This document shows, one piece after another, positions 1,013 to 49,830 of a stretch of DNA of 51,757 nt. The stretch spans positions 1 through 51,757 of IMG/VR virus record IMGVR_UViG_3300008262_006533; one strand, 5' to 3'. The stretch is from a virus. The notes below the pieces were generated by a model. It was not told where the DNA came from. It saw nothing but the letters and a program-made list of their open reading frames with translations, and did not search any database. A program made the position numbers and the translations under genes. Position 1 is the stretch's first letter. Each line of letters opens with the position of its first letter.

Positions 1013-4000
1013 TTATGTCACAAATATATTGAAACCGTCTTCCTGTTGAATCGTGAAAAAGTCTTCTTGGGCTAAGAAAACTAATTCGGTTGGTGTCGGT
1101 GTCTGTGTTGTTGTAGGAGTTACTGTTGGTGTTGAAGTAGTTGTTGCGGTGTTGGTTGGTGTTGATGTAGGTGTTTCCGTATTTGTTGGAGTATTGGTTG
1201 GAGTTTTAGTGTTAGTCGGTGTTGGAGTTTCTGTATTAGTAGGTGTTACGGTTTGAGTAGGAGTTTCAGTCGGAGTTGGTGTTGATGTTTCAGTTGCGGT
1301 AGGTGTCAATCCGATGGTTACACTCGGTGTAGGAGTTTCGGTCGTAGTTGGAGTATTTGTTGTAGTCTCAGTATTGGTAGGTGTAGGAGTTAAGGTTGAT
1401 GTTTCAGTTGGAGTATTGGTCGGAGTCTCCGTGTTTGTTGGTGTTGGTGTTTGTGTTGGAGTCTCTGTGTTAGTTGGTGTTTGTGTTGGAGTTTCAGTAG
1501 GTGTAGGAGTTTGAGTTGGAGTTTCAGTCTCAGTTGAAGTCTGGGTTGGAGTTTCTGTATTTGTAGGAGTCTGAGTTGGCGTAGAAGTTTCTGTCTCCGT
1601 AGGAGTATTAGTTGGAGTATTGGTTGGAGTTTCAGTTGGAGTATTTGTCGGTGTCTCAGTTTGAGTAGGTGTTGGTGTTACTGTATTAGTTGGGGTTTCT
1701 GTATTAGTCGGAGTTGATGTTGGAGTTGGAGTCTCAGTAGGAGTCTGAGTTGTAGTTTCGGTAGGAGTTGGTGTCGAAGTTTCAGTGTTGCTTGGAGTAA
1801 TACTTGGTGTTGGTGTTTGAGTTTCAGTCGCAGTCGGAGTTAATCCAATTGTCACACTTGGTGTTGGAGTCTGAGTTGGCGTCTCAGTATTAGTTGGAGT
1901 TTGGGTTGGTGTCTCGGTTGGTGTTTCAGTGTTGGTTGGTGTATTAGTTACAGTTGGTGTCGGAGTAGGTGTTTGTGTGGGACAAATAGAATATGCACCA
2001 ACAGTAATCCCATCAGAATCCAATTCAATGAGGAATCCATTATATGAATAGAATCCAGTTAGGTTAGTTGTATTTGGCCCTGATGGTGAATCATAGAATT
2101 GAATGTTCTCATCAAAAATGACCTTGTCACCCCAAATCGATCCACTATAAACACAGAAGCAAGCCTCCTCCAAAGTTGCTCCTGAACAAACAACAAATTC
2201 AGTCCTTAATATAGTTGGAGTTGGTGTTTGTGTAGGAGTAGTTGTTGGTGATTCAGTATTCGTTGGAGTCTGAGTTGGTGATTCAGTATTCGTTGGAGTC
2301 GGTGTTTCAGTTGGTGTCTCAGTATTTGTTGGAGTCGGTGTTTCAGTTGGAGTTTCACTCGGTGTTGGTGTTTGGGTTGTAGTCTCAGTTGGGCTTAAAG
2401 TAACGCTCGGTGTAGGAGTTGCGGTTGGTATTATTACAACACAATTAGGGCATTTAGGGTCCAAAAGATTATATCTATCCTTCAACAAACTAAAGTTGTG
2501 ATAAACCTCGGAAGCGTCCAAAGGTTCGACATACATACGGAAAGCACTTATATCTCCAATCATGCTTCCACCAAAATATTCCTCTAACTTGATATGAGTC
2601 GTCAAACCCGAATAAATGGTATTGTCCAAATCATCAGTTGTCAAACATTCTGGATCTTGTTGATAAGTAATCCCACTAATAGATGGAGGACATCCACCAG
2701 AAAATGTAAGATTATCTTTTAATCCCTGAGTTCCTCCACCCAATGAAATATTATATCCCACACCAATTTGTTTTTCCCTTTGAACGTCCAACAATCTTGG
2801 TATTATCTCTTCGAAGTTTTCAATAACCAAGAATAGTTTTCCGTTGACAAAAACTTTGAATGTACCAAGTCTGTAGATTTGTTCTTCAGTCCAATTGTCA
2901 TTGAATGTTACAATTTCTGTGGTGGCTGGATCGTAAGGTAATTCATGTGTAAGTGGTGGTTCAATTAAACTCACACTATTGTGTGCGGGTGTTGCGGTAT
3001 AAATTGTGTCAACCAATAATCCGAGACCTCCTTTTTCATACAGGTCACAAGTATCTAACCATTCCCTTCGTTGGAATACCGCATCAATTTGAACCCAATG
3101 TTCTAACTGTATATAAGGAGTATTTTTACACTCATCAAATATTCCACGAGTTGAGCACCATTCAGTAACTGAGGTTCCTGTATGGTAAGTCAATCCTGTT
3201 TGACAAGTTCCAGTAGTTTCACAACCACCAGTTATTCTATATGTTTTTACACACAACCTCGGGTTTCCTGTATCCCCACTCAATCGTATCGAGAGTCCAT
3301 TTGAAACTCCATCATACAATGGGTCTTTTTCGGGATATTCGGCAAAAACTTGACATGAACATGGACATCCACAATTACAGTTGGTAGATGTTCCTCCTGA
3401 TATTTGATAAACGTGAAGACAAGTTGACGCGGTGTTCGCTGAACTTGCACAACCACAGGTTTCCATACATGTAAGACCTGAAGTTACTCTTGTATATCCC
3501 GTGTCTTGTTTTGGTTCCCCATCCGCATAATGATAAAACTTATTCTCTGCTCGGGCACCCATATAGAAGAATGTACCTTTATTGTTTGGATAGCGATTAT
3601 TTAAACCGACGTTTGTATCTCCCGTCCATCTGTATCTTAACATGAATTCAGCAGTCCATCCTAAAGGTACTCTTTGTGGAAATATTTGATAATCGTACCC
3701 AGGAATTTTGTAAAATCCTTGGAAAAATCCTCCATTTAATCTTGCAAAGTATCCTACAGGATTTCCATCTGTTGTATAATTCAAATTGTAACTATATGAA
3801 TCATCATTCCACAAACGATTTTGTGTTGTGGTGAATCCTGTGATAGGATGAAGTTTCATCCTCCTATCATATTTGTATCTACTATATTTGTCAGTATTCG
3901 AGGTATATAATCCTGTATTAATTTGGATTGTTTCTCCTGACATTTGTTTTACCAAACCATTGTCAATCCCTGTCAAACCTACATCACAAAGGTTAGTTAT

Positions 4001-4291
4001 TTTAGGACAAAAATTAGGGTCAAGTCCATCAGGATTCCAATAGTTTTCAGAAACAATCACATCATTGTCAAATGTACAAGTTCCTGATTGGCATAAAGTT
4101 GTTGCAGTATTATTAATGTCGAATTTGAATGGCATTCTATTTCCATCATTTTCTCCAATCAACAATGGGGAAAAAATTACTTCCTGATTGTAGTCTTTCT
4201 CATCAGAAGCTAAACAAATGTCAGTTATTTCGTTGACAGGTTTAATACCCCAACGTCTGAAGTTGTACTGATTAATATTTTGATATGCCAT
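1013..4291 (-). CDS. large modular fibre/adhesin with long mucin-like Thr-Pro tracts
   Basis: 1092 residues. Residues 1 to about 620 are a non-repetitive region rich in Tyr, Gly and Asn. It has a very Cys-rich patch around 275-315 (CGCASS, NCNCGCPCSC) and beta-rich stretches around 490-610 that look LamG/concanavalin-like (GTFKVFVNGKLFLVIENFE). A first TPT tract follows, then a module of about 75 residues with four Cys (VVCSGATLEEACFCVYSG). A second, very long tract built from T-P-T, N-T-E-T-P-T and Q-T-P-T units takes up most of the remainder. The last 20 or so residues (LAQEDFFTIQQEDG) are non-repetitive again. Length and composition fit a virion surface fibre. The Thr/Pro/Ser content resembles mucin linkers, which are typical O-glycosylation substrates; glycosylation here is a hypothesis. 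A TATTTATC site lies 8 bases upstream of the ATG. Confidence 0.75.
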   Translation of the reverse strand: MAYQNINQYNFRRWGIKPVNEITDICLASDEKDYNQEVIFSPLLIGENDGNRMPFKFDINNTATTLCQSGTCTFDNDVIVSENYWNPDGLDPNFCPKITNLCDVGLTGIDNGLVKQMSGETIQINTGLYTSNTDKYSRYKYDRRMKLHPITGFTTTQNRLWNDDSYSYNLNYTTDGNPVGYFARLNGGFFQGFYKIPGYDYQIFPQRVPLGWTAEFMLRYRWTGDTNVGLNNRYPNNKGTFFYMGARAENKFYHYADGEPKQDTGYTRVTSGLTCMETCGCASSANTASTCLHVYQISGGTSTNCNCGCPCSCQVFAEYPEKDPLYDGVSNGLSIRLSGDTGNPRLCVKTYRITGGCETTGTCQTGLTYHTGTSVTEWCSTRGIFDECKNTPYIQLEHWVQIDAVFQRREWLDTCDLYEKGGLGLLVDTIYTATPAHNSVSLIEPPLTHELPYDPATTEIVTFNDNWTEEQIYRLGTFKVFVNGKLFLVIENFEEIIPRLLDVQREKQIGVGYNISLGGGTQGLKDNLTFSGGCPPSISGITYQQDPECLTTDDLDNTIYSGLTTHIKLEEYFGGSMIGDISAFRMYVEPLDASEVYHNFSLLKDRYNLLDPKCPNCVVIIPTATPTPSVTLSPTETTTQTPTPSETPTETPTPTNTETPTETPTPTNTESPTQTPTNTESPTTTPTQTPTPTILRTEFVVCSGATLEEACFCVYSGSIWGDKVIFDENIQFYDSPSGPNTTNLTGFYSYNGFLIELDSDGITVGAYSICPTQTPTPTPTVTNTPTNTETPTETPTQTPTNTETPTQTPTPSVTIGLTPTATETQTPTPSITPSNTETSTPTPTETTTQTPTETPTPTSTPTNTETPTNTVTPTPTQTETPTNTPTETPTNTPTNTPTETETSTPTQTPTNTETPTQTSTETETPTQTPTPTETPTQTPTNTETPTQTPTPTNTETPTNTPTETSTLTPTPTNTETTTNTPTTTETPTPSVTIGLTPTATETSTPTPTETPTQTVTPTNTETPTPTNTKTPTNTPTNTETPTSTPTNTATTTSTPTVTPTTTQTPTPTELVFLAQEDFFTIQQEDGFNIFVT
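1080..1980 (-). repeat. long Thr-Pro-coding degenerate repeat tract
   Basis: About 900 bases of variants of GGAGTT, GGTGTT, GTAGGAGTT and similar in frame in the 1013-4291 gene, coding for TPT, NTET, QTPT units. A second part is at about 2210-2440. Similar shorter tracts occur at about 110-215, 47345-47730 and 47960-48215. Such tracts may change length by recombination. Confidence 0.85.
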
Positions 4292-4343: not shown

Positions 4344-5147
4344 ATGATTCCTGTGGACACTGAATTTTTTTCATCACCTTATTATTTCTTGATGAGAGAC
4401 AAAGGGGATAAATATTCTCTATACTTCTCTGTTGAAAACACTTTGACCGAAGCACGTAAAAAAGATGAGGTTATTCATTTCGACAAAGAAAAGGGTGAGA
4501 AAGTAAAAAAACACTTGAAAAAAGTTACAAAAGAGAAAAAAATTAAAGACACAAAAACTTTGAAAACTGATTTGGAAGAATTAGTCAATACCGATGGAAG
4601 TATGTCAAATTCAAAAATCCCAATTTTGGACCCAAGACTTCATCCAAGAAAAACTATGGACCAAACTGTTGCAGCGTCAAGAATTACAAACGACCCGATT
4701 TCACGTGGTTACAGAACATATTATGGTGAGAGTGAAGTTAAGGAAATCGATATGTCAGGAGCATTCGGATATGAAGAAACCGAGGATTTGGATGGTAAAG
4801 AAACTTTCAAATTTTTGGTGAAAGACATGGGAATGGAACCTGATGAAGCAAAAGAAAGAACAAAACAACAAGGAAAAGACCCTTCAGGTAAGAAAGATAA
4901 AAAATCTAAGTTTTATAAGGACCCTAATTTCATAACAAGAGCTACACTTTCTGAAATTCAGAAACAAAAAGCAATAAAAGTTGTGGAGGATATGTTGGCT
5001 AAGAAAAAGGATTCTGCAGATATATCAAAAAAAGAAACGGAAACTTTGTCACCAGTTCTCAAAAAGAATTTAAGTTCTTTACTCAAACAAGCAGAAAAAC
5101 ACGGAATTTCAAAAAAAGATTTGATTAAAATAATTCAAAGTGAATAA
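4344..5147 (+). CDS. Lys-rich phage protein of unknown function
   Basis: 267 residues, highly charged. The N-terminal 30 residues are hydrophobic/aromatic (FFSSPYYFLM). A strongly basic coiled segment follows (about residues 45-75, KVKKHLKKVTKEKK), then a central part with PILDPRLHPRKTMDQTVAASR, and a helical Lys/Glu-rich C-terminal third. I do not recognise a family. It is the first plus-strand gene after the divergent fibre cluster. A TATTTATA box lies 15 bases upstream, and it overlaps the next gene by 8 bases, so the block 4344-6920 is probably one transcript. The charged helical character would suit an internal virion or assembly protein, but nothing in the sequence proves that. Confidence 0.7.
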   Translation: MIPVDTEFFSSPYYFLMRDKGDKYSLYFSVENTLTEARKKDEVIHFDKEKGEKVKKHLKKVTKEKKIKDTKTLKTDLEELVNTDGSMSNSKIPILDPRLHPRKTMDQTVAASRITNDPISRGYRTYYGESEVKEIDMSGAFGYEETEDLDGKETFKFLVKDMGMEPDEAKERTKQQGKDPSGKKDKKSKFYKDPNFITRATLSEIQKQKAIKVVEDMLAKKKDSADISKKETETLSPVLKKNLSSLLKQAEKHGISKKDLIKIIQSE

Positions 5148-33673: not shown

Positions 33674-35476
33674 TTATCTCAATTCTCTCAAGTCGAATGT
33701 TCTTACTCCATCAACTGTGATTCTACCATAGAATCTGTTATTAACCATTTTCTTAGCGTATCTAGTCATAATACCTTTGATTGGTGTAAAGTTGAATGGA
33801 TTGTACATTGTAGGAGTTAATTGTAGAGGTACATACGGTGCGTAGATGTAACCAGTGTCCAATAGAGAAGTTCCTTTGTGACCCATCAATACTTGGTTTG
33901 GTGGGAAGTAAGGGTCTCTATACACTTGATAACGACCTGCTAATGTACCAACTCTTTCAATACCCATGTTGTACTGATCCTGCTCAGGAGCTGCGTTTGA
34001 TACGTGGAAGTATTCCAAATCATCAAAAATAGCACTAATTTCAGAAGAAACAACGATCCAGTTTGCTCCACCTCTCAATGTAGATTTGTGGATTTGAGCT
34101 GAAATTTGGTTGATTGCTGTGATAAGAGTCTGATTCCAATCTTTCTGAGTATAAGGAACTGCGTTAGATCCTAATCTCTTCCATCCATTGTAATCCCATC
34201 TTAAGTTCCAAGCTGCTCCTTTTCTAAGGTCTCTCAAGATTTCTCGATCAATTTCAGCCGCAACTTGCTCAGACAACAATGCTGTTAATTCAGCTTCAGC
34301 GTCGATGTTGTGGAATGCCGCAACGTCCTGTGCCATTTCTGGAGACCACTGAGCTCTTAATTTTCTTTCAGTCACAGAAACTGTTACTGACATAAGGTCA
34401 AAAGAAACTTCACCGATTCTATCTTCGAATTCCAAGTTCTTATAGATTCTATAAGTAGCTGAGAATGCACTGTCAGCAGCAGTTGTTGAAGAGAATGTTG
34501 AACCTGTGTAACCATCTAATGAACCACCACAAGTGATACATACTGGAACTTGTAAGTCAACTTCAAGATAAATCTTACCTTCAGCGTCACAAAGGTTGTC
34601 GTACTGACCACCATCTGTCTTACTCTGAGGGAATAATAAAGTTGCGTTATTGTTTCCATACTCTACAATACCTTTACCATATCTTTGAGTTACAACTCTG
34701 AATAAATAAGGATTGTTTACGTTTGCAGCAGTATTAACGTTTCCTGCAACACCATAAATTGTTAAATCAGACAAGAAAGCTTCGTTGTCCATTGGTTGAC
34801 CGTCAGGACCGATTAATTTACCAGCTCCATCAGATGCAAAACCTGACATAACTACCAACACTTTTCTATAATTGTCTTCACCATAACCTGAAACAATCAA
34901 GTTACTTCCAGCCCATACTACAGTTCCAACTTGAGCAGTAATAGCTGAATATTGTCCCTTAGAATAGTCGAACAACCCTGGAGGATCCAAAGCTGGTTCG
35001 TTTCCTTCATAGAATCTGTCGTAGAGATCCTTTGTGTTGTTGTAGTCGTATCCAGAATTTGGAGTTTGACCAGTTGATGCGTTAGGAGAACCATAAGGTG
35101 CGTAGTGAATACCTGTGTTATTCGCTCCCAAGTTCTCATAAGATTGGATGTTAGGTACGAAGTAGAACAATTTACCGATAGGTAAGTTCATAGCTTGTAC
35201 TGAAACGATGTCGTTCGCTAATAATTTTGAGAAAACTCTTCTAACGATAGGGAAAACAACTGTTTCAAATGCACCTGTATCAGATGTAGATGATGCTTCA
35301 TTGATTAAGTGTGAAGCTTGGTTTTCATAAAGTTGAGCAACGTTCTCTCTCATGTGACCTTTAAGACCCTCTAAGAATCCTAATTTGTCCCATTTGTTGA
35401 TTGTGTCTTCTTTGATAACTTTAAGGTGCTTAAGACCGATATTACCAACAAGACCTGATTCTAATAATGCTCCCAT
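33674..35476 (-). CDS. gp23: major capsid protein, T4 gp23-type
   Basis: 600 residues. The N-terminal part resembles T4 gp23: TINKWDKLGFLEGLKG (25-40) compares with the gp23 LLNKWKPLLEGEG segment. HLINEASSTSDTGAFETVVFPIVRRVF (56-82) corresponds to FLTEAEIGG..., where the T4 prohead protease cuts after Glu. Cleavage here is expected between Glu60 and Ala61. LLANDIVSVQAMNLPIGKLFYF fits the gp23 pattern DICGVQPMNSPTGQVFAL. The mature chain would be about 540 residues and form the HK97-fold head shell. The gene lies at the end of the minus-strand head cassette after the core protein, as in T4, and is followed by a strong terminator. Confidence 0.93.
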   Translation of the reverse strand: MGALLESGLVGNIGLKHLKVIKEDTINKWDKLGFLEGLKGHMRENVAQLYENQASHLINEASSTSDTGAFETVVFPIVRRVFSKLLANDIVSVQAMNLPIGKLFYFVPNIQSYENLGANNTGIHYAPYGSPNASTGQTPNSGYDYNNTKDLYDRFYEGNEPALDPPGLFDYSKGQYSAITAQVGTVVWAGSNLIVSGYGEDNYRKVLVVMSGFASDGAGKLIGPDGQPMDNEAFLSDLTIYGVAGNVNTAANVNNPYLFRVVTQRYGKGIVEYGNNNATLLFPQSKTDGGQYDNLCDAEGKIYLEVDLQVPVCITCGGSLDGYTGSTFSSTTAADSAFSATYRIYKNLEFEDRIGEVSFDLMSVTVSVTERKLRAQWSPEMAQDVAAFHNIDAEAELTALLSEQVAAEIDREILRDLRKGAAWNLRWDYNGWKRLGSNAVPYTQKDWNQTLITAINQISAQIHKSTLRGGANWIVVSSEISAIFDDLEYFHVSNAAPEQDQYNMGIERVGTLAGRYQVYRDPYFPPNQVLMGHKGTSLLDTGYIYAPYVPLQLTPTMYNPFNFTPIKGIMTRYAKKMVNNRFYGRITVDGVRTFDLRELR

Positions 35477-35520: not shown

Positions 35521-37131
35521 TTACCCAATCTTACTCATCAAATCTTTCATTCTTAAGAATTGTGGATTCTCATAAGTTTTTGATTCGATTAAGGTAGTTG
35601 ATGAACCTGTAGAAACATTTTTGTTTAATTTAGTCTCTACTGATTCGTTAATTGGTGCTGTTTCAGTGTTAGATAATTCGTCTTTAATTGACTTGTAAAG
35701 GTTTTTAGATTCTTTCAAAGTTTCTACATTATCGAATCTTCTTAGAATGTTTATTTTTTCCTTTTTAGTAGTCGAATGTTCAGTGAATAATCTTGTAGCG
35801 TAAGCTAAGTTAGAATTGAAAATTGCAACTTCATTAAGTTTTTCTCTGAAAACATTTAATGCTTTTCTATACTCTTCATTTTTCTCTCTCAACATTGCCA
35901 CTTCTGACTCTGTGGATTCAACTTTTACTCCGTTATTTCCATAAACATAATTTCTGTTGTTAGTAATACCTTTTCTAAGTCCTCGTCCTTCTTTCGAACC
36001 CATTCCATAAGTTCTTGCTGCTTCTTTAGTTTCTTCCTTTTCGAAAGCTTTTCTTTTTAGAGTATCACCTTTTTTGGTTGTAAAATCTTCTTTACCTTTC
36101 ATGGTCTTTGATTTATCACCTTTGTTCATTCCGTAATTACCCTCTTTTGTTTCAGCCTTAACAACTTTGGATTTTGATTCCATATTTTCACCTTTCTTGT
36201 ATTCGAATTTAGGTTTACCAGTACCTACTGATTTTGGCCCTTCTTTCTTCTTCTCATCGAATCCGCCTTTAGCTTTATCTTTGTAAGTGAATTTAGGTCC
36301 TGACCCAATTCCAACACCTTTAGGTTTTACTGTCGATTTTCCTTCTCTAACAGCTCTTCTATGGTTGTAAGATTCGTCCAATTCTTCATCTTCTTCTTCG
36401 TCCATCATGTCTTCTTCGTCCATCATGTCTTCTTCATCCATCATGTCTTCTTCGTCCATCATGTCTTCTCCTTCTTCAAGGTCTTCTCCTTCTTCAAGGT
36501 CTTCTCCTTCTTCGAGGTCTTCACCTTCTTCAAGGTCTTCTTCCTCATCGAATTCGATCTCATACATAACTTCTTCATCTTCAACGTCGAGATCCTCAAC
36601 GTCACCGTCTTTTGAGAAAATTGCATTGATTACATCTTCTGTATCAACATCCATTTCATCGATTTCATCTACGTGCATAGTTTCATCTAATTCTTCTTCC
36701 TCTTCTGACTCACCTAGCTTGATTAAGTATTCTGTATCAGCGTCTTCGTCTTTTAAGTGAATTTCGTCATCATCTTTTTTCACGATGATTCCATCTTCGT
36801 CACTCATAGCTTTGAAAACCTTAAGAATTTCTTCGTCTGAAGCATCAGTTAAATCTATTGGACTTTCTTCAGAATCCATGTCCATGTCCATATCAAATTC
36901 CATGTCCATACCCATTTCATCTTCATTATCAACATCAACATCGGTTTCGATGTCTGTATCTAATTCAATCTCATCTTCCATATCTTGCTCTGACAGAGAT
37001 TCTTTTACTAGTTGGTTGATTTCTTCCTTCATAGTAGAAGCAAGTATTCCTTTTGCATTTTGGGCGATTGCCTCTTCAACATTTTTCATTTGAATCAACG
37101 CCTCTTGTACTAAGTTTTTATTTTCTTGCAT
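35521..37131 (-). CDS. prohead core/scaffold candidate, very acidic with tandem repeats
   Basis: 536 residues in the gp22 position between protease and capsid genes. The N-terminal helix QEALIQMKNVEEAIAQNAKG leads to INQLVKESLSEQDMEDEIE. Residues about 55-255 are extremely acidic, with DMEFDMDMDMDSEE and two blocks of six-residue repeats (EEGEDL and MMDEED, four copies each). A basic Gly/Lys-rich region comes next (about 270-390). A helical C-terminal region (about 405-450, SEVAMLREKNEEYRKALNVF, EKLNEVAIFNSNLAYATRLF) resembles T4 gp22-type core proteins. It probably forms the internal scaffold and is destroyed by the protease. A TATTTATA box lies 22 bases upstream. Confidence 0.8.
   Translation of the reverse strand: MQENKNLVQEALIQMKNVEEAIAQNAKGILASTMKEEINQLVKESLSEQDMEDEIELDTDIETDVDVDNEDEMGMDMEFDMDMDMDSEESPIDLTDASDEEILKVFKAMSDEDGIIVKKDDDEIHLKDEDADTEYLIKLGESEEEEELDETMHVDEIDEMDVDTEDVINAIFSKDGDVEDLDVEDEEVMYEIEFDEEEDLEEGEDLEEGEDLEEGEDLEEGEDMMDEEDMMDEEDMMDEEDMMDEEEDEELDESYNHRRAVREGKSTVKPKGVGIGSGPKFTYKDKAKGGFDEKKKEGPKSVGTGKPKFEYKKGENMESKSKVVKAETKEGNYGMNKGDKSKTMKGKEDFTTKKGDTLKRKAFEKEETKEAARTYGMGSKEGRGLRKGITNNRNYVYGNNGVKVESTESEVAMLREKNEEYRKALNVFREKLNEVAIFNSNLAYATRLFTEHSTTKKEKINILRRFDNVETLKESKNLYKSIKDELSNTETAPINESVETKLNKNVSTGSSTTLIESKTYENPQFLRMKDLMSKIG
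36391..36462 (-). repeat. four 18-base tandem repeats encoding MMDEED
   Basis: On the plus strand the unit is GTCTTCTTCGTCCATCAT; the four copies differ at only a few bases (one copy has CATCCATCAT). They are in frame inside the acidic core protein, so copy number changes would not shift the frame. Confidence 0.9.
36463..36534 (-). repeat. four 18-base tandem repeats encoding EEGEDL
   Basis: Plus-strand unit GTCTTCTCCTTCTTCAAG, two exact copies followed by copies with G for A or A for T changes. Directly next to the MMDEED block; together 144 bases of in-frame acidic repeat. Confidence 0.9.
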
Positions 37132-37494: not shown

Positions 37495-38211
37495 TTATTT
37501 TCCTAAAAAATCGGTTAATTTTTTCATTAAGTCAACCTGCTTACCAACATACTCATTATTTTGTTTAGATTTTTTTTCTTCATCTAAATTTTCTTCATAT
37601 TTTGCTCTATCATCAGGGTTAGAAAACAAGTAAGCGCCAGGAGTAGATGGTGATGAAACTAAATCGAAACATATCAATTCAAAATCATCTTGAACTTCAT
37701 TCCGTTCTCCAACCTTTTTCAAAGAACCAACACCTCTTGATGAAATACCCAAAGTCACCCCTTGTCTCATCAAGTTTGCTGCTTGGTCACCCTTTGTCGA
37801 AACTATACCTCTTTCGTGAAACCCAGGAGAGGTCAATAGTTTGAGTTTTCCCATGAGTATATTTTTATCCCACCATATATCAGTTATGATGTGAGATACT
37901 CTGTCGAGGTCTATAAGAGATGATTCAGGGTGGTTTAATTCTGATGTAGACAAACCTTTTGCGATTGCTTGCTTATACCTGTCAGCTTCTCTTTTAAGAA
38001 TTCTTTCAGGATACGTTCTACCATTTCTATTTGGTGTGTCAAATTTTTGTAAAACCGCATAAAATTCAAAAGGATTTCTGTAATCCATATTGGATGCCTC
38101 CTTGAGTACATCCACATTGTGAGCATCTTTTGGGGAAACCCAACCCGCATCCATTTCTATTAGGATTCCGTGACCGAGTTCACTTGCTTCTAAAATTCTT
38201 AAATTTTTCAT
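37495..38211 (-). CDS. gp21: prohead protease, T4 gp21-type
   Basis: 238 residues. It has VLQKFDTPNRNGRTYPERIL (53-72, the N-x-N-G-R-x-Y-P motif of this serine protease family), GLSTSELNHPESSLID (86-101) with catalytic His94, and GVTLGISSRGVGSLKK (151-166) with the catalytic Ser. CFDLVSSPSTPGAYLFSN (181-198) contains the third residue. In T4 the protease digests the core and trims the capsid protein after I/L-x-E sites during maturation. The order portal, protease, core, capsid is kept. The N-terminus ILEASELGHGILIEMDAGW is extended compared with the domain. A TATTTATC site lies 12 bases upstream. Confidence 0.9.
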   Translation of the reverse strand: MKNLRILEASELGHGILIEMDAGWVSPKDAHNVDVLKEASNMDYRNPFEFYAVLQKFDTPNRNGRTYPERILKREADRYKQAIAKGLSTSELNHPESSLIDLDRVSHIITDIWWDKNILMGKLKLLTSPGFHERGIVSTKGDQAANLMRQGVTLGISSRGVGSLKKVGERNEVQDDFELICFDLVSSPSTPGAYLFSNPDDRAKYEENLDEEKKSKQNNEYVGKQVDLMKKLTDFLGK

Positions 38212-38247: not shown

Positions 38248-38688
38248 TTACAGGTCATTCCCTTTTTTTGAAATTGAAAAATCAAAGTATTTGTTCTGAA
38301 CAACATTGTTTTTGTATATTGATTTCACAATTTGTTTTACTGATTCTTTAATTTCATCACTTTTAAAATCTATGTCTTTAGTGGTATAAAGATTGATTTC
38401 GAGATTGAAAAAGGATTTTTTACCTTTGAATATACCACTTGTTCTAAGGTCCAAGTCGACTATATTTTTTTGTTGAAAAATTTTGGAATCGATAGATTCG
38501 AAAATTGAATTTTTTATTTCTCTACCTAAACTAGAGACAACTCGATTCCAATTATTAAATTCTTCTTTAGGTGTAACCCATGATTGGATATTAATATAAA
38601 CTGATTTTAAGTTTTTAGAATCGACTGTACCGTACTGAGATTTTATTGGACTGAACAGGTTAAGTTTTACACTTTTTCCTTTTTTCAT
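38248..38688 (-). CDS. hypothetical protein in the head cassette
   Basis: 146 residues: basic start (MKKGKSVKLNLFSPIKSQYG), followed by strands and helices (KSVYINIQSWVTPKEEFNNW; IVDLDLRTSGIFKGKKSFFNLEINLYT). No catalytic motif and no known family that I recognise. It lies between the portal-side gene and the protease, where T4 has its small prohead genes gp67 and gp68, so a small head-assembly role is possible. It is separated from the next plus-strand gene (bS21) by 97 bases. Confidence 0.6.
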   Translation of the reverse strand: MKKGKSVKLNLFSPIKSQYGTVDSKNLKSVYINIQSWVTPKEEFNNWNRVVSSLGREIKNSIFESIDSKIFQQKNIVDLDLRTSGIFKGKKSFFNLEINLYTTKDIDFKSDEIKESVKQIVKSIYKNNVVQNKYFDFSISKKGNDL

Positions 38689-38763
38689 TAATAATGATAT
38701 TAAACTTGTTTATTCGTTGATGAAAAAATATACATTATATGGAGAAATGTCAAAATTTTTTTA

Positions 38764-38771
38764 TATTTATT
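38764..38771 (+). promoter_or_regulatory. TATTTATT motif before the bS21 gene
   Basis: 14 bases from the ATG at 38786, in plus-strand orientation although the surrounding genes are on the minus strand. Flanks TA and AAT. This is the best evidence that the motif follows gene orientation and is not just a property of the head cassette strand. Confidence 0.5.
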
Positions 38772-38785
38772 AATATTTCTAATAT

Positions 38786-38977
38786 ATGATAATAGTAAAA
38801 ATTACTCAGGGGAATAACCTTGAAAGAGCATTGAAAACTCTCAAATCAAAAGTAATCAAAACAAAACAAAATCAAATTTTATTTGACAAAAGGGAGTTTA
38901 CAAAAAAATCTGTACTCAGAAGAGCACAGATTTTGAAAGCGAAACACGTACAAAGTCTCAAAGATAAATCAAATTGA
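38786..38977 (+). CDS. rpsU: ribosomal protein bS21 homologue
   Basis: 63 residues, the usual length for bS21. IIVKITQGNNLERALKTLKSKV (2-23) matches the bacterial opening (V/I-x-V-x-x-G-E-x-x-x-x-A-L-K-R-x-K). KREFTKKSVLRRAQILKAKHVQSL (35-58) matches the basic R-R-x-F-x-K-P-S-x-x-R-x-x-x-x-K segment that lies along 16S rRNA near the anti-Shine-Dalgarno sequence. bS21 is among the few ribosomal proteins carried by phages. The phage copy could replace the host protein and bias initiation toward phage messages. It is the only plus-strand gene in the head cassette, and its last 9 bases overlap the end of the convergent gene at 38969-39667. Confidence 0.87.
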   Translation: MIIVKITQGNNLERALKTLKSKVIKTKQNQILFDKREFTKKSVLRRAQILKAKHVQSLKDKSN

Positions 38978-39667
38978 TTCTTCTAAATTTTTTAATCTAA
39001 GAAAATTTAATTGGTCAAATTTTTCAGATTTTACTCTATTAATTGTTTCAGAAATTTTTGATTTTATGTCTTGAGATTCTTCATTGTTCTGAAGTACTTC
39101 GAGTTTAGAAATTGCACTTTCTCTGATTGTTTCAAACTTACTTTCTAAACTTTTTGTATCTTCGGAAACTATTTGAAAAAATTCTTTTTTGGAATTTTCA
39201 TCCAAATTCAAAATGTAATTATTGACAGTTTGGTTCGCAACTGCAACCATTGAACTTATTGGGATATTAATATTTTCTTTAATATTTTCTTTCACAGATG
39301 TGATTACTTTCAAAATATTTTTCTTCGCATTTACTCTTTCAATTAAATCAATTCCTTGATTGTAGACTAATGTATCGATGTCGGAATATTTGTTTTCAAT
39401 CTCCTGAGAAAAACTTTTTGGTAATTTGATACTTGGTAAAATTTTATTTAACAGACTAACCCCTTCTTCAATAAAAAATTTTGCATCCTGTTCACTTATC
39501 CCTTGAGGTGAACTCAGTTGATCATATATTGCGTATGCTTTTGACATAGCTTTATTACTCAAAACGTTGTGTTTGAATTCTCGTATTGTTCTCTTGAACT
39601 CATTCTCATTTCTATAAGATTCTAAGAGATTTTTTTCTATTAGGGATTTTACTATTCCGAAGGTCAT
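38969..39667 (-). CDS. helical hypothetical protein next to portal
   Basis: 232 residues, almost entirely helical with Lys/Glu/Ile/Asn and no Cys (GIVKSLIEKNLLESYRNENEFKRTIREF; NAKKNILKVITSVKENIKENI; ESKFETIRESAISKLEVLQNNEE). It sits directly after the portal gene, 20 bases away, in the place of T4 gp67/gp68 core proteins, so it may be a minor core or scaffold protein. No family is recognised. A TATTTATT site lies 12 bases upstream. Confidence 0.65.
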   Translation of the reverse strand: MTFGIVKSLIEKNLLESYRNENEFKRTIREFKHNVLSNKAMSKAYAIYDQLSSPQGISEQDAKFFIEEGVSLLNKILPSIKLPKSFSQEIENKYSDIDTLVYNQGIDLIERVNAKKNILKVITSVKENIKENINIPISSMVAVANQTVNNYILNLDENSKKEFFQIVSEDTKSLESKFETIRESAISKLEVLQNNEESQDIKSKISETINRVKSEKFDQLNFLRLKNLEESI

Positions 39668-39687: not shown

Positions 39688-41544
39688 TTATGAATTTAAT
39701 AACTTATCTAACTCTTTTGAAATTTCTCCCAAAGAATCTTGTGCCTGACCCAAATTTATCATTTGAGAACCTTCGATTAAATTGTTTTCTAGCAAAATAT
39801 TCAAATCTTTTTTCCTTGATTCTGGTGTAACTTCTGCCGCTGGTGGTGGAGCTTCAGCTCCTGCTGGTGGTGGAGCTTCTGCACCCAATTCAGTACCTCC
39901 CATATCTCCACTGAATGACGAAGGTGGAGGACCTAATTCTTCTCCTCCATCCGTAGTTGTTTCTGCACCAGCCGTAGGAGTTGCTCCTGTTTGGGAACCA
40001 TACAATTTATCGATGTTGTCAAACAATCCAGTTTTTGTAATTACAGTTGGTGTTGCCTTCAGTTCTTCACCGACCGCTCTTTCAACTCGTTGTTGTTGTA
40101 AATCCAAACGAACTTCCTCATCGGACCAACCAAAGATATGTTTCTTAGCCCAAGTTGATGAAGTTGCTTGAATTCCGTTTCCTGGATCTGCAACCAAATC
40201 TTTATATAATAATACTTTTTCTTTCCACACATCGATTTTTAACAAATCTGCTTGTGTTGAAGGATTTGTTAAACCAAGTGTAAAGTTCGATAGTTCATCT
40301 TCGAATCCCAATAAAAATAAGTGAACAATTGCTATTTTGTTCAATTCAGCCAACATACTTTTTTGTATTCTGTTGATTGTACGGGCAAATCTAATATCTT
40401 GTAATGCTAAATTCTTTCCATCACCAACAACTTCTTCAAATCCCAAAAATGCTTTTGGAACTCTCAACGCTGTTAATAATTTCTTTTGAATATATTCAAT
40501 ATCGGCAATTTCTGATAGGTTTTGAGCACCTGCCAATGTATCAATTGGTGTTGGTGCTGCTGGATCACGAACAGGAATAAAGTAATCTTGGTCTACCGCC
40601 ATTTGGTTAAATCTCATGTCGACATTACCTGTCTTACTATCAACAATTTGTTCTCTCTTGAACTTGTTGGCAACTCTTTGTACGTACGCTTCAACGTCGT
40701 CATCATTCATGTTTCCAACGAAAACTTTAAAAATTCTTCTTTCAGGTGCTCGAGATGTTCTATAAATTAACATAGCATCCTCACAAAGAAGAAGTTGTTT
40801 CCATATACGTCTTGCTTTTTCCAACATTGAAGTTCCATAAGGGAGTTTTCTGTCATCACCCAATAATCTGAAGTGAGCCATTTCCCAAGATTGAAATTCC
40901 ATGTTTTTATTTTTCCAAGTAAAGTGTAATGACTTTTGGTCCTTATCCACTTCATTTTTTACATCAACAGATATTTTGCCACTTGCTCCAACCTCATGTC
41001 GTTCAATTTCTATAGTTGGTAATTGTTGACACCCTACAACTCCTTTTTCAGGGTCCAACTTCAAATAAACAAAGTTGTCACCATACTTACAGGTGTTCCG
41101 AGTCCACATTGGCAAGTTAGTGTTAATGTCCAATGCATTATTGAACAAATCAGCTAAGACACCTTTAATTCTTTTTGATTCAGAATAAATTTGTAAGATG
41201 AATCCATCCTCATTTGTTGTAGTGGATTCCTCGGCGTATATGTCCAATGCTGCTGAAATTTCAGGGGTGTACTCCATAGACTCATAGTCATATTGAGCAG
41301 ACAACCTTGTTGGTTCATAATAAATTGCTTGGGAATATAAATTGTTTTCTACCTTAGCCCACTGATTTGTAAGGTAGTATGTTTGTTGTGCTTGTAGTTT
41401 TTCTTTTTCGTACTCTTCTCTACTTTTTGTTCGCAGAAGTTCCTTTTTATCAAACTTAAATGTTGGATAATCCTGATTGAGAAGTGAGTTCGGCCCAAAG
41501 GTTTGAGACAATCTCTGCCAAACGGTCATGTTTTGTTCTGCCAT
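39688..41544 (-). CDS. gp20: portal vertex protein, T4 gp20-type
   Basis: 618 residues. EYTPEISAALDIYAEESTTT (91-110), EMAHFRLLGDDRKLPYGTS (221-239), YRTSRAPERRIFKVFVGNM (261-279) and the following VEAYVQRVANKFKRE are characteristic of the gp20 wing and stem domains. YIPV-type repeats (DQDYFIPVRD) and FLGFEEVVGDGKNLALQDIRFARTI complete the family. After about residue 500 the chain becomes Pro/Ala/Gly-rich and low-complexity (GAEAPPPAGAEAPPPAAEV), an extension T4 gp20 does not have, followed by a helical end. The dodecameric ring is the site of DNA packaging and tail attachment. A TATTTATA site lies 27 bases upstream. Confidence 0.92.
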   Translation of the reverse strand: MAEQNMTVWQRLSQTFGPNSLLNQDYPTFKFDKKELLRTKSREEYEKEKLQAQQTYYLTNQWAKVENNLYSQAIYYEPTRLSAQYDYESMEYTPEISAALDIYAEESTTTNEDGFILQIYSESKRIKGVLADLFNNALDINTNLPMWTRNTCKYGDNFVYLKLDPEKGVVGCQQLPTIEIERHEVGASGKISVDVKNEVDKDQKSLHFTWKNKNMEFQSWEMAHFRLLGDDRKLPYGTSMLEKARRIWKQLLLCEDAMLIYRTSRAPERRIFKVFVGNMNDDDVEAYVQRVANKFKREQIVDSKTGNVDMRFNQMAVDQDYFIPVRDPAAPTPIDTLAGAQNLSEIADIEYIQKKLLTALRVPKAFLGFEEVVGDGKNLALQDIRFARTINRIQKSMLAELNKIAIVHLFLLGFEDELSNFTLGLTNPSTQADLLKIDVWKEKVLLYKDLVADPGNGIQATSSTWAKKHIFGWSDEEVRLDLQQQRVERAVGEELKATPTVITKTGLFDNIDKLYGSQTGATPTAGAETTTDGGEELGPPPSSFSGDMGGTELGAEAPPPAGAEAPPPAAEVTPESRKKDLNILLENNLIEGSQMINLGQAQDSLGEISKELDKLLNS

Positions 41545-41580: not shown

Positions 41581-43341
41581 TTATTTAGCACCAAATAACC
41601 ACCCATATTTTTGATAATCCGATTTGGATGGGCCATTATTCATCAAGTTGGGGTCTTTACCCATTTGAGGAACCATAGGATTAAAATAGTCCGAGGTATT
41701 TTTGTTCTCACTGACCACAGTCGCCCATGAATTCAACATTGCTTTTGTATGGTTTACCACTTTAGTAAGGGATTGAAATGATTTTTCTGCAACATAAATT
41801 GCCATAGATAAAGCCATGATACAATCATCATGTTGTCCCTTTTGATGGTCAGGTCTTCCGTTTATGTAAACGAAAGTATTCATTTCATTGTATGTTCTAT
41901 GTGAAAAAATTTTGAACCCGTGTCTAACTCCTTCTTCGAATGCAGCAATAATTTGAACTCTTTTTGTGTTAAAATTAATACCTGGTATTTTTTCATTAAT
42001 TTTGGGGTCCCACTTCCATTTGTTTGAAGTATCAACACCATCAACATAGAGACCTCCTTGATACTGTAGTTCTTGTAGTTTTCTTGCGGTTGAAACTCCC
42101 ATTCCTCCTGTAATATCTATGACACAAAACGCATTATACATAGTACCCCATTTGTAAGCAATCTCGGCTAAGACATCAGGTGGAACTTTCCCAACATATT
42201 CTAAGGATTGTTCTCTTTCATCAAAATCGATAATCTGTATGGATGAAAAGTCTTCTGAGTCACCACGAGAAACGTCAATTCCCATAACATATTTGTGACC
42301 ATTGACTGGCTCTTTGAAAATCCACAATGCATTGCCCATTAGTTTTGCTTGTGGTGATTGAAGTTGATTTTTAGCAATATTTTGCATCAAGTCAGAATCG
42401 AAAACGTTGTCCCCTGAACCCAAGAAATTGCATTCCAATTCTTGTGCAACCTTTCTTCTGTCATACTTCAATTTTTTTACCATCCCCTCAAACCAAGAAG
42501 AACATGGTTTGTATCCTTTTTCTATGTAATCTGTCGTTACGGCATGATCTCGGTCATACGGATTATCCGTAGATAAATCTATGATAGTATCGATTGGATA
42601 GTCTTCTCTGTTAAGTAAATAATGAACCAAATCTCCAGTTTTGACCATATACAAATCTTTGGTATATCTCGGATCTCTGTACCAAAACATTTCGGAGATT
42701 TTGAAATCATTCATACCTCTCAAAGCTTGGTCATAAATTTCATAGTAAATTGGGTCATATCCGTTAGGTGTAGATACAACTATCACTTTACCACCTGTAG
42801 ATAGGGAAGCCATACAAGCTGACCAAAAGTCTCCGTCAGCCTCGATGAAGGCAGCTTCGTCAAAAATAAGGATTGTAGGTGTATAACCTCTCAAGGCGTC
42901 CTTAGATGTTGCAACCGCTTTGACTTCACATCCGTTATTTAATTTGAAATGTCTTTGAGAATTCTTTTCTGCTGAAAATCCAATTCCAACCCATGCTGGC
43001 CATTGTTCTATAAACCCACGTATTTTGTTTGCCATTTCTACGGACGTATCCAATTTGTTGGCAATAATCAAAACTTTTTCAGGTTTTTCTTTTCTTGCGA
43101 AGGCTAGTTTTTTTGATGCCCATGCAGCTGTTACTGTGGAAACACCTGCTTGTCGATATTTTAGGGCAATATTTTCGTTGTGACTTTCGTAATCTTCGAG
43201 TAGAGATACTTGGTCGGGGAATAAATCCAAAGGGACATATTTGGATACTGTATTATCGTATGTCTGTAAATAAGTACGAAGTGCATAAGGGGTATTCCTC
43301 ATACACTTCGTATATTCTATAATTAATTGTTCTTTATTCAC
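41581..43341 (-). CDS. gp17: terminase large subunit, T4 gp17-type
   Basis: 586 residues. The N-terminal ATPase has KYRQAGVSTVTA (61-72, Walker A variant without a lysine in the usual place, as in T4 gp17-type enzymes), TILIFDEAAF (156-165, Walker B with D161/E162) and VVSTPNGYDP (188-197, coupling motif). The C-terminal RNase H-like nuclease has VMGIDVSRGDSEDFSSIQI (352-370) with D356, CVIDITGGMG (406-415) with D409, and QHDDCIMALSMAIYVAE for the third acidic residue. It cuts concatemeric DNA and pumps it into the head. The small subunit is not recognised in the window. It lies 21 bases after the 43363 gene. Confidence 0.95.
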   Translation of the reverse strand: MNKEQLIIEYTKCMRNTPYALRTYLQTYDNTVSKYVPLDLFPDQVSLLEDYESHNENIALKYRQAGVSTVTAAWASKKLAFARKEKPEKVLIIANKLDTSVEMANKIRGFIEQWPAWVGIGFSAEKNSQRHFKLNNGCEVKAVATSKDALRGYTPTILIFDEAAFIEADGDFWSACMASLSTGGKVIVVSTPNGYDPIYYEIYDQALRGMNDFKISEMFWYRDPRYTKDLYMVKTGDLVHYLLNREDYPIDTIIDLSTDNPYDRDHAVTTDYIEKGYKPCSSWFEGMVKKLKYDRRKVAQELECNFLGSGDNVFDSDLMQNIAKNQLQSPQAKLMGNALWIFKEPVNGHKYVMGIDVSRGDSEDFSSIQIIDFDEREQSLEYVGKVPPDVLAEIAYKWGTMYNAFCVIDITGGMGVSTARKLQELQYQGGLYVDGVDTSNKWKWDPKINEKIPGINFNTKRVQIIAAFEEGVRHGFKIFSHRTYNEMNTFVYINGRPDHQKGQHDDCIMALSMAIYVAEKSFQSLTKVVNHTKAMLNSWATVVSENKNTSDYFNPMVPQMGKDPNLMNNGPSKSDYQKYGWLFGAK

Positions 43342-47163: not shown

Positions 47164-48441
47164 TTAATTATTTAATCCTTGGAATCCTCCTAAAGATATT
47201 GCGTTCAACTGAATTATTGTTACGTTGCCATCTTCATCAGTCATTACTTGGTAAGGGACTGTTGAACCCGATGGTGCGGTTCCTCCACTGAATGAACCCA
47301 ACATATCAATTGTATATTCGTATTGTTGGTTTACTTCTATTGTATAATTGAAAGTTACACTCGGAGTTGGGGTTGCGGTTGGAGTTGTATTTGGTGTTCC
47401 TGATGGTGTTGAAGTTACTGTTGGTGTTGGTGTTGGTGTTGATGTGACTGGTGGTGTTCCACTCGCAGATGCAGTAATACTTGGTGTCGGTGTAATCGTT
47501 GTGGTATTAGTTGGTGTTGAAGTAACTGTTGGTGTTTGAGTTGGTGTCGCAGTAACAGTAGTTGTAACTGTTACTGATGGTGTTACAGTTGGTGTTGAAG
47601 TTGCAGTTTGAGTCACTGTAGCCGTAGGAGTTGGAGTCACTCCTGCAGTTCTTGTTGGAGTCGGAGTTGTAGTTGATGTTGGTGTAGCACTTGGAGTCGA
47701 TGTATTCGATGCTGTTGGTGTTGGAGTTATATCTCCAAGACATTCAATACAAGTTTCCCAAGGTCCATTGAATATAGTCACATCCAAAGCCAAAGGTGTA
47801 TCAAAACCATTATTTACCGTGTAGCATTGATGACCTCCTCCGTCGACATTCAAATCATATATTTTTCCACTGACAAGAGTACCTCTAAATTTTGCGTATA
47901 AAGTTGTGCCTCCCGTACAAGGAGTAATAATATAATATGTGTAAGCCAACAATGAAGTAGTTGGAGTCACCGTATTGGTTGGTGTAATTGATGGTGTAGG
48001 AGTAATAGTTGCAGTTTGGGTTGGAGTAGTTGTAACAGTTGGTGTTTGAGTTGGTGTTCTTGTCACCGTAGCAGTGTTTGTAGGCGAAGTAGTATTTGTT
48101 ACAGTTTGAGTAACAGTTGGTGTTGGTGTGACTGCCGCGGTTTTTGTCGGTGTAGGTGTTGGAGTTTTGGTTGGTGTTACTGTCGGAGTCGATGTATTTG
48201 ACGCTGTAGGAGTTGGAGTAATATCACCCAAACATTCAATACAGTTGTCCCATGGTCCATTAAAAATTGTTGCAGTCAAAGCTAAAGGAGTGTCAAAACC
48301 TGACGCGATGGTATAACATCCATTACCACCACCATCGATGTTCAAGTCGTAGATTTTACCCTGAATGAGATTTTCCTCCGACTTGATGTATAGTTGTGTG
48401 GTGGAATTACAGGAAGACGCAATATAATAATTAAAAGCCAT
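47164..48441 (-). CDS. duplicated-module protein with Thr-Pro-rich linkers
   Basis: 425 residues. Module 1 (residues 4-75) and module 2 (166-240) are clear duplicates: both contain GKIYDLN.DGGG, .CYT, GFDTPLAL, .TIFNGPW and C-I-E-C-LGDITPTPTASNTSTP. The Thr/Pro/Ser tracts lie between them (about 76-163) and after the second (about 241-368). The C-terminal domain (about 370-425) is unrelated (TIEVNQQYEYTIDMLGSFSGG). The small Cys-bearing modules and TPT tracts match those in the gene at 1-408 and the large gene at 1013-4291, so it is probably a surface fibre or decoration protein. A TATTTATA site lies 13 bases upstream. It stands at the far end of the head gene group. Confidence 0.7.
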   Translation of the reverse strand: MAFNYYIASSCNSTTQLYIKSEENLIQGKIYDLNIDGGGNGCYTIASGFDTPLALTATIFNGPWDNCIECLGDITPTPTASNTSTPTVTPTKTPTPTPTKTAAVTPTPTVTQTVTNTTSPTNTATVTRTPTQTPTVTTTPTQTATITPTPSITPTNTVTPTTSLLAYTYYIITPCTGGTTLYAKFRGTLVSGKIYDLNVDGGGHQCYTVNNGFDTPLALDVTIFNGPWETCIECLGDITPTPTASNTSTPSATPTSTTTPTPTRTAGVTPTPTATVTQTATSTPTVTPSVTVTTTVTATPTQTPTVTSTPTNTTTITPTPSITASASGTPPVTSTPTPTPTVTSTPSGTPNTTPTATPTPSVTFNYTIEVNQQYEYTIDMLGSFSGGTAPSGSTVPYQVMTDEDGNVTIIQLNAISLGGFQGLNN

Positions 48442-49249: not shown

Positions 49250-49492
49250 CTATATTTTTTTGTACTTGAATGCTCTCGATATGTCCGTAGTGAAAAACTT
49301 TCCTTGTGACTCGGACACTCTAAACTTAGTATATGTCTGATGTGGAACGTCTTCGTACTCGTACTTTAATCCATTGTTGAATTCAACAACGAGTTTTTTC
49401 GTTTCAGTATCGTATTCTGTTTTTTTTATGTTTGAAGATTTAATCTCATTGAGAATCTTCGTCCCCTTTATCTCTTCTTTCAGTATCGCCAT
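49250..49492 (-). CDS. KTSC-domain protein
   Basis: 80 residues. SSNIKKTEYDTETKKLVVEFNNGLKYEYEDVPHQTYTKF (19-57), SESQGKFFTTDI and FKYKKI follow the KTSC pattern (strand Y-D, L-x-V-x-F, G-x-x-Y-x-Y-x-x-V-P, and a late G-K-x-F). KTSC domains occur in phage and bacterial proteins, often attached to nucleic-acid or lysyl-tRNA-synthetase-like proteins; the function is unknown. Its start lies 47 bases inside the end of the upstream gene, a larger overlap than elsewhere here; a later start would remove the first strand, so the longer form is preferred. Confidence 0.75.
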   Translation of the reverse strand: MAILKEEIKGTKILNEIKSSNIKKTEYDTETKKLVVEFNNGLKYEYEDVPHQTYTKFRVSESQGKFFTTDISRAFKYKKI

Positions 49493-49781
49493 CTCGGAGT
49501 GGTATTAATTCGTTTATTTTTAATAGTAACGGCATAATGTAGTCTTGAACTTCTTCTTTGGTGACATCAAATCCATAATCGATAATAAACCTAATCAAAG
49601 AATTGAATTGACTTTGAAATTTTTCTTGGAGACTCATCATCTTAAAAGTATATTGGGGAGGACTATCAAGTTCTGATTCACTGAATCCAAGTTCTTGTAG
49701 ATGTCGTCTGAGTTCCAAATAGGTCTCCAATAATTCATTCAAGAACGGAGAGTTATTCAAATATTTTTGGAATGGTTTCAT
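49446..49781 (-). CDS. hypothetical helical protein
   Basis: 111 residues, acidic and helical (NELLETYLELRRHLQELGFSESELD; FQSQFNSLIRFIIDYGFDVTKEEVQDYIMPLLLKINELIP). Its last 15 residues are strongly charged (RDGDTERRDKGDEDSQ). No family match is recognised. It is the first gene of the small cluster that also contains the KTSC and nucleotidyltransferase genes; a TATTTATA site lies 3 bases before the ATG. Confidence 0.6.
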   Translation of the reverse strand: MKPFQKYLNNSPFLNELLETYLELRRHLQELGFSESELDSPPQYTFKMMSLQEKFQSQFNSLIRFIIDYGFDVTKEEVQDYIMPLLLKINELIPLRDGDTERRDKGDEDSQ

Positions 49782-49784
49782 AAA

Positions 49785-49792
49785 TATAAATA
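49785..49792 (-). promoter_or_regulatory. TATTTATA motif before the 49781 gene
   Basis: 3 bases before the ATG at 49781 on the minus strand; flanks AA and TTT. It is downstream of the 49831-49860 terminator, so the next transcript on this strand would begin here. Confidence 0.5.
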
Positions 49793-49830
49793 TTATGAAA
49801 ACTTTTTACATTTTGACTATTATAAAAAAT

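Follow-up and report, generated by a model that had tools for sequence, protein, structure and literature searches.

A Phage bS21 Gene without the Host's Shine-Dalgarno Control Element Lies Antiparallel in a Conserved Head-Gene Cassette

The bS21 Gene and Its Neighborhood

The ribosomal protein most commonly reported in phages is bS21, and a single copy of its gene was found in the linear virus record investigated here (51,757 bases; hereafter, the window). The gene occupies positions 38786–38977 of the plus strand, from an ATG at 38786 to a TGA ending at 38977, and encodes 63 amino acids (MIIVKITQGNNLERALKTLKSKVIKTKQNQILFDKREFTKKSVLRRAQILKAKHVQSLKDKSN). Its product scored 30.8 bits against PF01165 (E 2.4e-7), a family whose gathering score is 27 bits. 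The only significant solved relatives were the bS21 of Flavobacterium johnsoniae (7JIL; E 1e-9, 61 of 63 amino acids), which was the nearest, and 9i5v. An earlier note on this DNA had described a full bS21-like protein on the plus strand between minus-strand head genes; the coordinates, strand, and frame were exact, and the matches to Pfam and to solved structures point to bS21 rather than to other small basic proteins, an alternative that the note had raised. The score against TIGR00030, the NCBI S21p equivalog, was 19.1 bits and lay below the cutoff of 28.95 bits. Judged by these profile matches, the phage protein is a bS21 homologue whose equivalog status was not confirmed by TIGR00030. The dN/dS values were 0.04–0.22 against the 12 relatives with measurable values, with a median of 0.149 over 806 pairs; by this measure the gene is under purifying selection and is thus more than a chance open reading frame. 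The host of the virus is probably a member of the Bacteroidota.

The surrounding head genes lie on the minus strand. They encode the major head protein (33674–35476; phrog_138, E 2.9e-65), the head maturation protease (37495–38211; phrog_207, E 2.7e-42), the portal protein (39688–41544; phrog_213, E 2.5e-65), and the terminase large subunit (41581–43341; phrog_2, E 2.2e-42). Directly flanking bS21 on the same minus strand are a divergent gene for 146 amino acids (38248–38688) and a convergent gene for 232 amino acids (38969–39667), each of which was detected, antiparallel to bS21, in 136 of 140 loci; the 3' ends of bS21 and the latter overlap by 9 bp. The 232-amino acid product may correspond to the bS21_CN described by Chen et al. 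Its predicted model was all-helical (pTM 0.52), that of the 146-amino acid protein reached a pTM of 0.85, and a fold search of both models against the PDB gave no significant match. A weak Pfam match of 38248–38688 to NNH2 was below the cutoff and was set aside. The plus-strand part of the window carries genes for glycosyltransferases, an epimerase, a UDP-glucose/GDP-mannose dehydrogenase, an FkbM methyltransferase, and a dUTPase, and a search of the window for tRNA genes found none. Two genes lying far apart, 1013–4291 and 47164–48441 (minus strand), both matched phrog_15511, of unknown function, and the match to one PHROG suggests that they have a domain in common.

Conservation of the Antiparallel Arrangement

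The arrangement is not new, since the antiparallel position of bS21 in the head-gene region of Bacteroidetes jumbo phages (clades a–e) was described by Chen et al. (2022, PMC9723584), and the window is a further case of it. As in their phages, bS21 runs against the surrounding TerL, portal, protease, and MCP genes, conserved hypothetical genes flank it, sugar, FkbM methyltransferase, and dUTPase genes accompany it, and the protein is Bacteroidetes-like with Tyr or sometimes His at residue 54. However, the window is a 51.8-kb linear fragment, whereas their genomes measure 293–331 kb; one related contig that carries this cassette reaches 326 kb.

The antiparallel slot was kept in about 198 viral loci, of which 139, counting that of the window, came from the first scans and 59 from a later one that used host-type bS21. 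All 1094 matches to cassette genes were antiparallel to bS21 (796 in the first set and 298 in the later set) and none was parallel, although these locus counts are not counts of independent events because loci on different contigs can be near-copies. While the set of Chen et al. had a TerL limit of about 70%, some relatives gathered here keep the arrangement at TerL identities of only 42–63% to the window (best segments). In a farther group (L163–L182), about 250–430 bases separate bS21 from the convergent CN homologue, compared with an overlap of 4–9 bases elsewhere. One viral contig (L162, near position 4001) has a host-like bS21 with neither the cassette nor a Shine-Dalgarno (SD) site, and probably acquired it independently.

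Sequence Elements Upstream of bS21

Upstream of bS21 on the plus strand, a GTCAAAATTTTTTTA block (38749–38763) is conserved in near relatives and may be the upstream part of a promoter. It is followed by TATTTATT (38764–38771), which the earlier note named as the gene's own site, and by AATATTTCTAATAT (38772–38785), a promoter-like stretch that abuts the ATG, contains no SD, and is conserved in near relatives (44 distinct upstream regions). The conserved parts in these relatives are GTCAAAAtTTTTTT and gATATTTnTAATAT, the latter abutting the ATG, while the exact TATTTAT was found in 8 of the 44 regions. So TATTTATT is indeed present where it was reported, but it is not the conserved bS21 promoter of near relatives, in which the proximal element is conserved instead, nor is it enriched as a stand-alone 8-mer (11 occurrences in the window vs. 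7.7 expected). Among the farther phages, the distance from TATTTAT to bS21 downstream is about 17–18 nt.

The shorter word behaved differently from the 8-mer. Of the 55 window genes, 16 had a sense-oriented TATTTAT in the 60 nt before the start codon, where the coding rate predicted 0.2 and mononucleotide shuffles gave a mean of 2.2 and a largest value of 8. Examples are the genes at 35521, 37495, 38969, 39688, 47164, 48495, and 49446 on the minus strand and at 4344, 24277, and 28507 on the plus strand. In the 326-kb relative (L221–L236) it preceded 75 of 329 genes (2.9 expected), and its spacing from the ATG fell mainly into two classes, 4–6 and 13–20 nt. These counts show that TATTTAT is a real directional element, which we read as a phage-specific promoter element, and the nearer distance class suggests leaderless or very short-leader messages. 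That bS21 and other phage genes share the element is no more than consistent with late transcription of bS21 alongside the structural genes. The only other window site with a two-part upstream element of the bS21 type, in which GTCAAAA precedes an ATATTT close to the ATG, was located at 49782–49817 (minus strand), upstream of 49446–49781, a gene of unknown function. The words TGACATAA and TGTCATA were observed near TATTTAT upstream of 416–985, 1013–4291, and 4344–5147, being common to the divergent pair 1013–4291/4344–5147, and they may represent a second promoter class.

Shine-Dalgarno Sites in Host rpsU and Phage Genes

In F. johnsoniae, bS21 is autoregulated through the extended SD of rpsU: ribosomes lacking bS21 have a free anti-SD and translate rpsU best (McNutt et al. 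2023, PMC9976891). SD strength was scored by pairing positions -25 to -4 of each gene with a single generic 16S tail, CACCUCCUUUCU, at all loci. An extended SD was present in all 79 readable host rpsU loci, which were chosen by similarity to bS21 and were mostly from Flavobacteriaceae; every one of them scored at or below -13 kcal/mol (about -17 to -21), and one further host locus was masked by N, could not be read, and stands outside the 79. In contrast, none of the 139 phage bS21 genes scored at or below -7 kcal/mol. The energy for the bS21 gene of the window was +2.9 kcal/mol, which does not reach the extended-SD threshold of -13 kcal/mol, and no SD was found among the bS21 genes of the further cassette loci in the later scan. 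By predicted pairing, the bS21 genes of cassette phages are without the SD control element of the host. We found no mention of this absence in a literature search that covered few subscription papers and preprints; neither it nor the upstream element is discussed by Chen et al. (2022, PMC9723584), and both are described here.

A further viral set contained an SD-like site in 2 of 82 loci, L237 (-12.1 kcal/mol) and L240 (-9.7 kcal/mol), both without the cassette; given these two, host-like SD control may persist in certain other lineages of phages. L237 is LR756501.1, a 735-kb phage, and both bS21 genes lie near position 3001.

The absence of SD sites extends beyond bS21. None of the 55 window genes reached -7 kcal/mol, compared with 4 of 55 mock positions, which bears out the claim of the earlier note that the phage messages lack SD sites; in the 326-kb relative, 7 of 329 genes had an SD compared with 32 of 329 mock positions. 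On these scores phage genes in general avoid SD, and because of this, the missing SD of phage bS21 may reflect what is usual for phage genes and not a selected escape. Phage genes whose strong SD might make them targets of bS21-free ribosomes were also sought; the best candidate (L231:5094–5795, -16.3 kcal/mol, in the 326-kb relative) looks incidental, since its SD falls within the last part of the preceding reading frame.

Residue 54 and the Phage Signature

Tyr54 of F. johnsoniae bS21 stacks on the 16S tail, at A1534, and the Y54A exchange derepressed a strong-SD reporter about threefold (McNutt et al. 2023, PMC9976891). The bS21 of the window has His at the corresponding position. In the comparison of pocket residues with host bS21 that the earlier note proposed, the protein is of the Bacteroidia type and full length, and it carries His where hosts have Tyr. 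Among the 139 scored phage loci, 95 had Tyr and 44 had His, whereas all 80 hosts had Tyr. At least eight changes between Tyr and His were needed on the tree of flanking DNA, and some proteins, such as those of L046 and L057, differed solely at residue 54. V23, I24, K27, and Q28 were common to 60 of 61 distinct phage bS21 sequences, whereas the host residues at these positions are F, D, G, and T, which agrees with Chen et al. (2022, PMC9723584). Compared with the rpsU product of Flavobacteriales hosts, the bS21 of the window is homologous, of the same length, and Bacteroidia-type in its C-terminal region, but it is 41–52% identical, with His54 and KVIKTKQ in place of KFD[KR]T, and its gene has no extended SD.

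Phage bS21 and the Host Control Circuit

The earlier note proposed that the phage might modify host ribosomes late in infection in favor of its own messages, which lack SD sites. The identity of bS21 and its link to covering of the anti-SD are sound and match the account of Chen et al. (2022, PMC9723584), whose ribosome-substitution hypothesis came with late transcription of bS21 in related phages and Bacteroidetes hosts. However, messages of Bacteroidia hosts are also without SD (McNutt et al. 2023, PMC9976891), so favoring SD-less messages does not discriminate, and anti-SD covering alone cannot favor phage over host messages. Host rpsU, with its extended SD, stands out from the other host messages and is the one expected to respond. 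An unregulated supply of phage bS21, together with feedback repression of host rpsU, appears to fit better.

The explanation we consider best, to which we give about an even chance, is that a functional, Bacteroidia-type, SD-free phage bS21 enters the host 30S subunit and represses host rpsU. It is drawn from the published host circuit and the sequence contrast shown here. A dedicated promoter within the head cassette would drive phage bS21, which would replace host bS21 in the 30S subunit or compete with it for that place. Since the protein has kept its full length and a residue 54 that is aromatic or an imidazole, it probably still covers the anti-SD tail. The phage gene has no SD, so phage bS21 should not switch off its own synthesis. 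With the anti-SD kept covered by the phage protein, host rpsU specifically should be repressed; phage bS21 would thereby close the host loop, and synthesis of host bS21 would fall. Ribosomes competent for SD-less messages would then increasingly carry phage bS21, with its KVIKTKQ linker, during head-protein synthesis.

Counted for this explanation are the homology, the purifying selection, the antiparallel orientation of 1094 of 1094 matches, the SD contrast, Tyr or His at residue 54 in 139 of 139 loci, and the shared TATTTAT, along with published late transcription (PMC9723584), autoregulation and the Y54A effect (PMC9976891), and incorporation into Escherichia coli ribosomes (PMC6375957). 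The last refers to Pelagibacter phage HTVC008M, which likewise carries bS21 on its genome and whose protein entered E. coli ribosomes (Mizuno et al. 2019, PMC6375957). Three points count against it. Phage genes in general are without SD, so the SD-free state of bS21 need not be a selected escape; His54 might weaken the covering of the anti-SD; and E. coli ribosomes that carried the pelagiphage bS21 showed almost no activity in vitro (Mizuno et al. 2019, PMC6375957), which by analogy would speak against a functional replacement, though in a different phylum. The HTVC008M protein, unlike that of the window, is of the alphaproteobacterial type and was acquired from Pelagibacter, and anti-SD sequestration of the F. 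johnsoniae type has been described as a Bacteroidia trait.

An unlikely but still serious alternative, put forward by Chen et al. (2022, PMC9723584) and by the earlier note, is that the altered N-terminal helix and linker of phage bS21 select phage over host mRNAs directly. The V23/I24/K27/Q28 signature in 60 of 61 distinct phage sequences, against F/D/G/T in hosts, agrees with it, and Chen et al. (2022, PMC9723584) locate changes of this kind in phage bS21 close to the path of the mRNA. Nevertheless, there is no known shared mark that sets phage messages apart from host messages, both being without SD (McNutt et al. 2023, PMC9976891). Moreover, a lineage signature would also be expected from common descent.

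bS21 is a loosely bound, late-assembling ribosomal protein, and extra ordinary bS21 could simply keep ribosomes complete during heavy late synthesis, with neither a change of specificity nor an effect on host rpsU being needed. Initiation on SD-less mRNA is poor when ribosomes lack bS21 (McNutt et al. 2023, PMC9976891), and the phage mRNAs are SD-less, yet host autoregulation should refill bS21 already, and the fixed signature of the phage protein, unlike that of hosts, also speaks against simple dosage, which we regard as rather improbable. A nonribosomal role, in which this small protein binds RNA or DNA during head assembly or is packaged and delivered on infection, seems very improbable, since its invariable position among head genes and the possibility of packaging raised by Chen et al. 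(2022, PMC9723584) are set against the opposite strand, the separate upstream element, and the retention of the whole bS21 length and of the 16S-tail contact residue, as a ribosomal role predicts.

The repression of host rpsU by an SD-free phage bS21 thus remains our preferred reading. More broadly, and with a confidence that falls short of even, we propose that cassette phages take over the host autoregulatory circuit: SD-free bS21 would cover the anti-SD, translation of host rpsU would fall, and ribosomes would be converted by replacement. The repeated exchange of Tyr and His at a residue touching the 16S tail provides natural variants to compare. In this sample, the contrast between an SD that is always present in hosts and never present in cassette phages ties phage bS21 to a characterized control circuit of the host.
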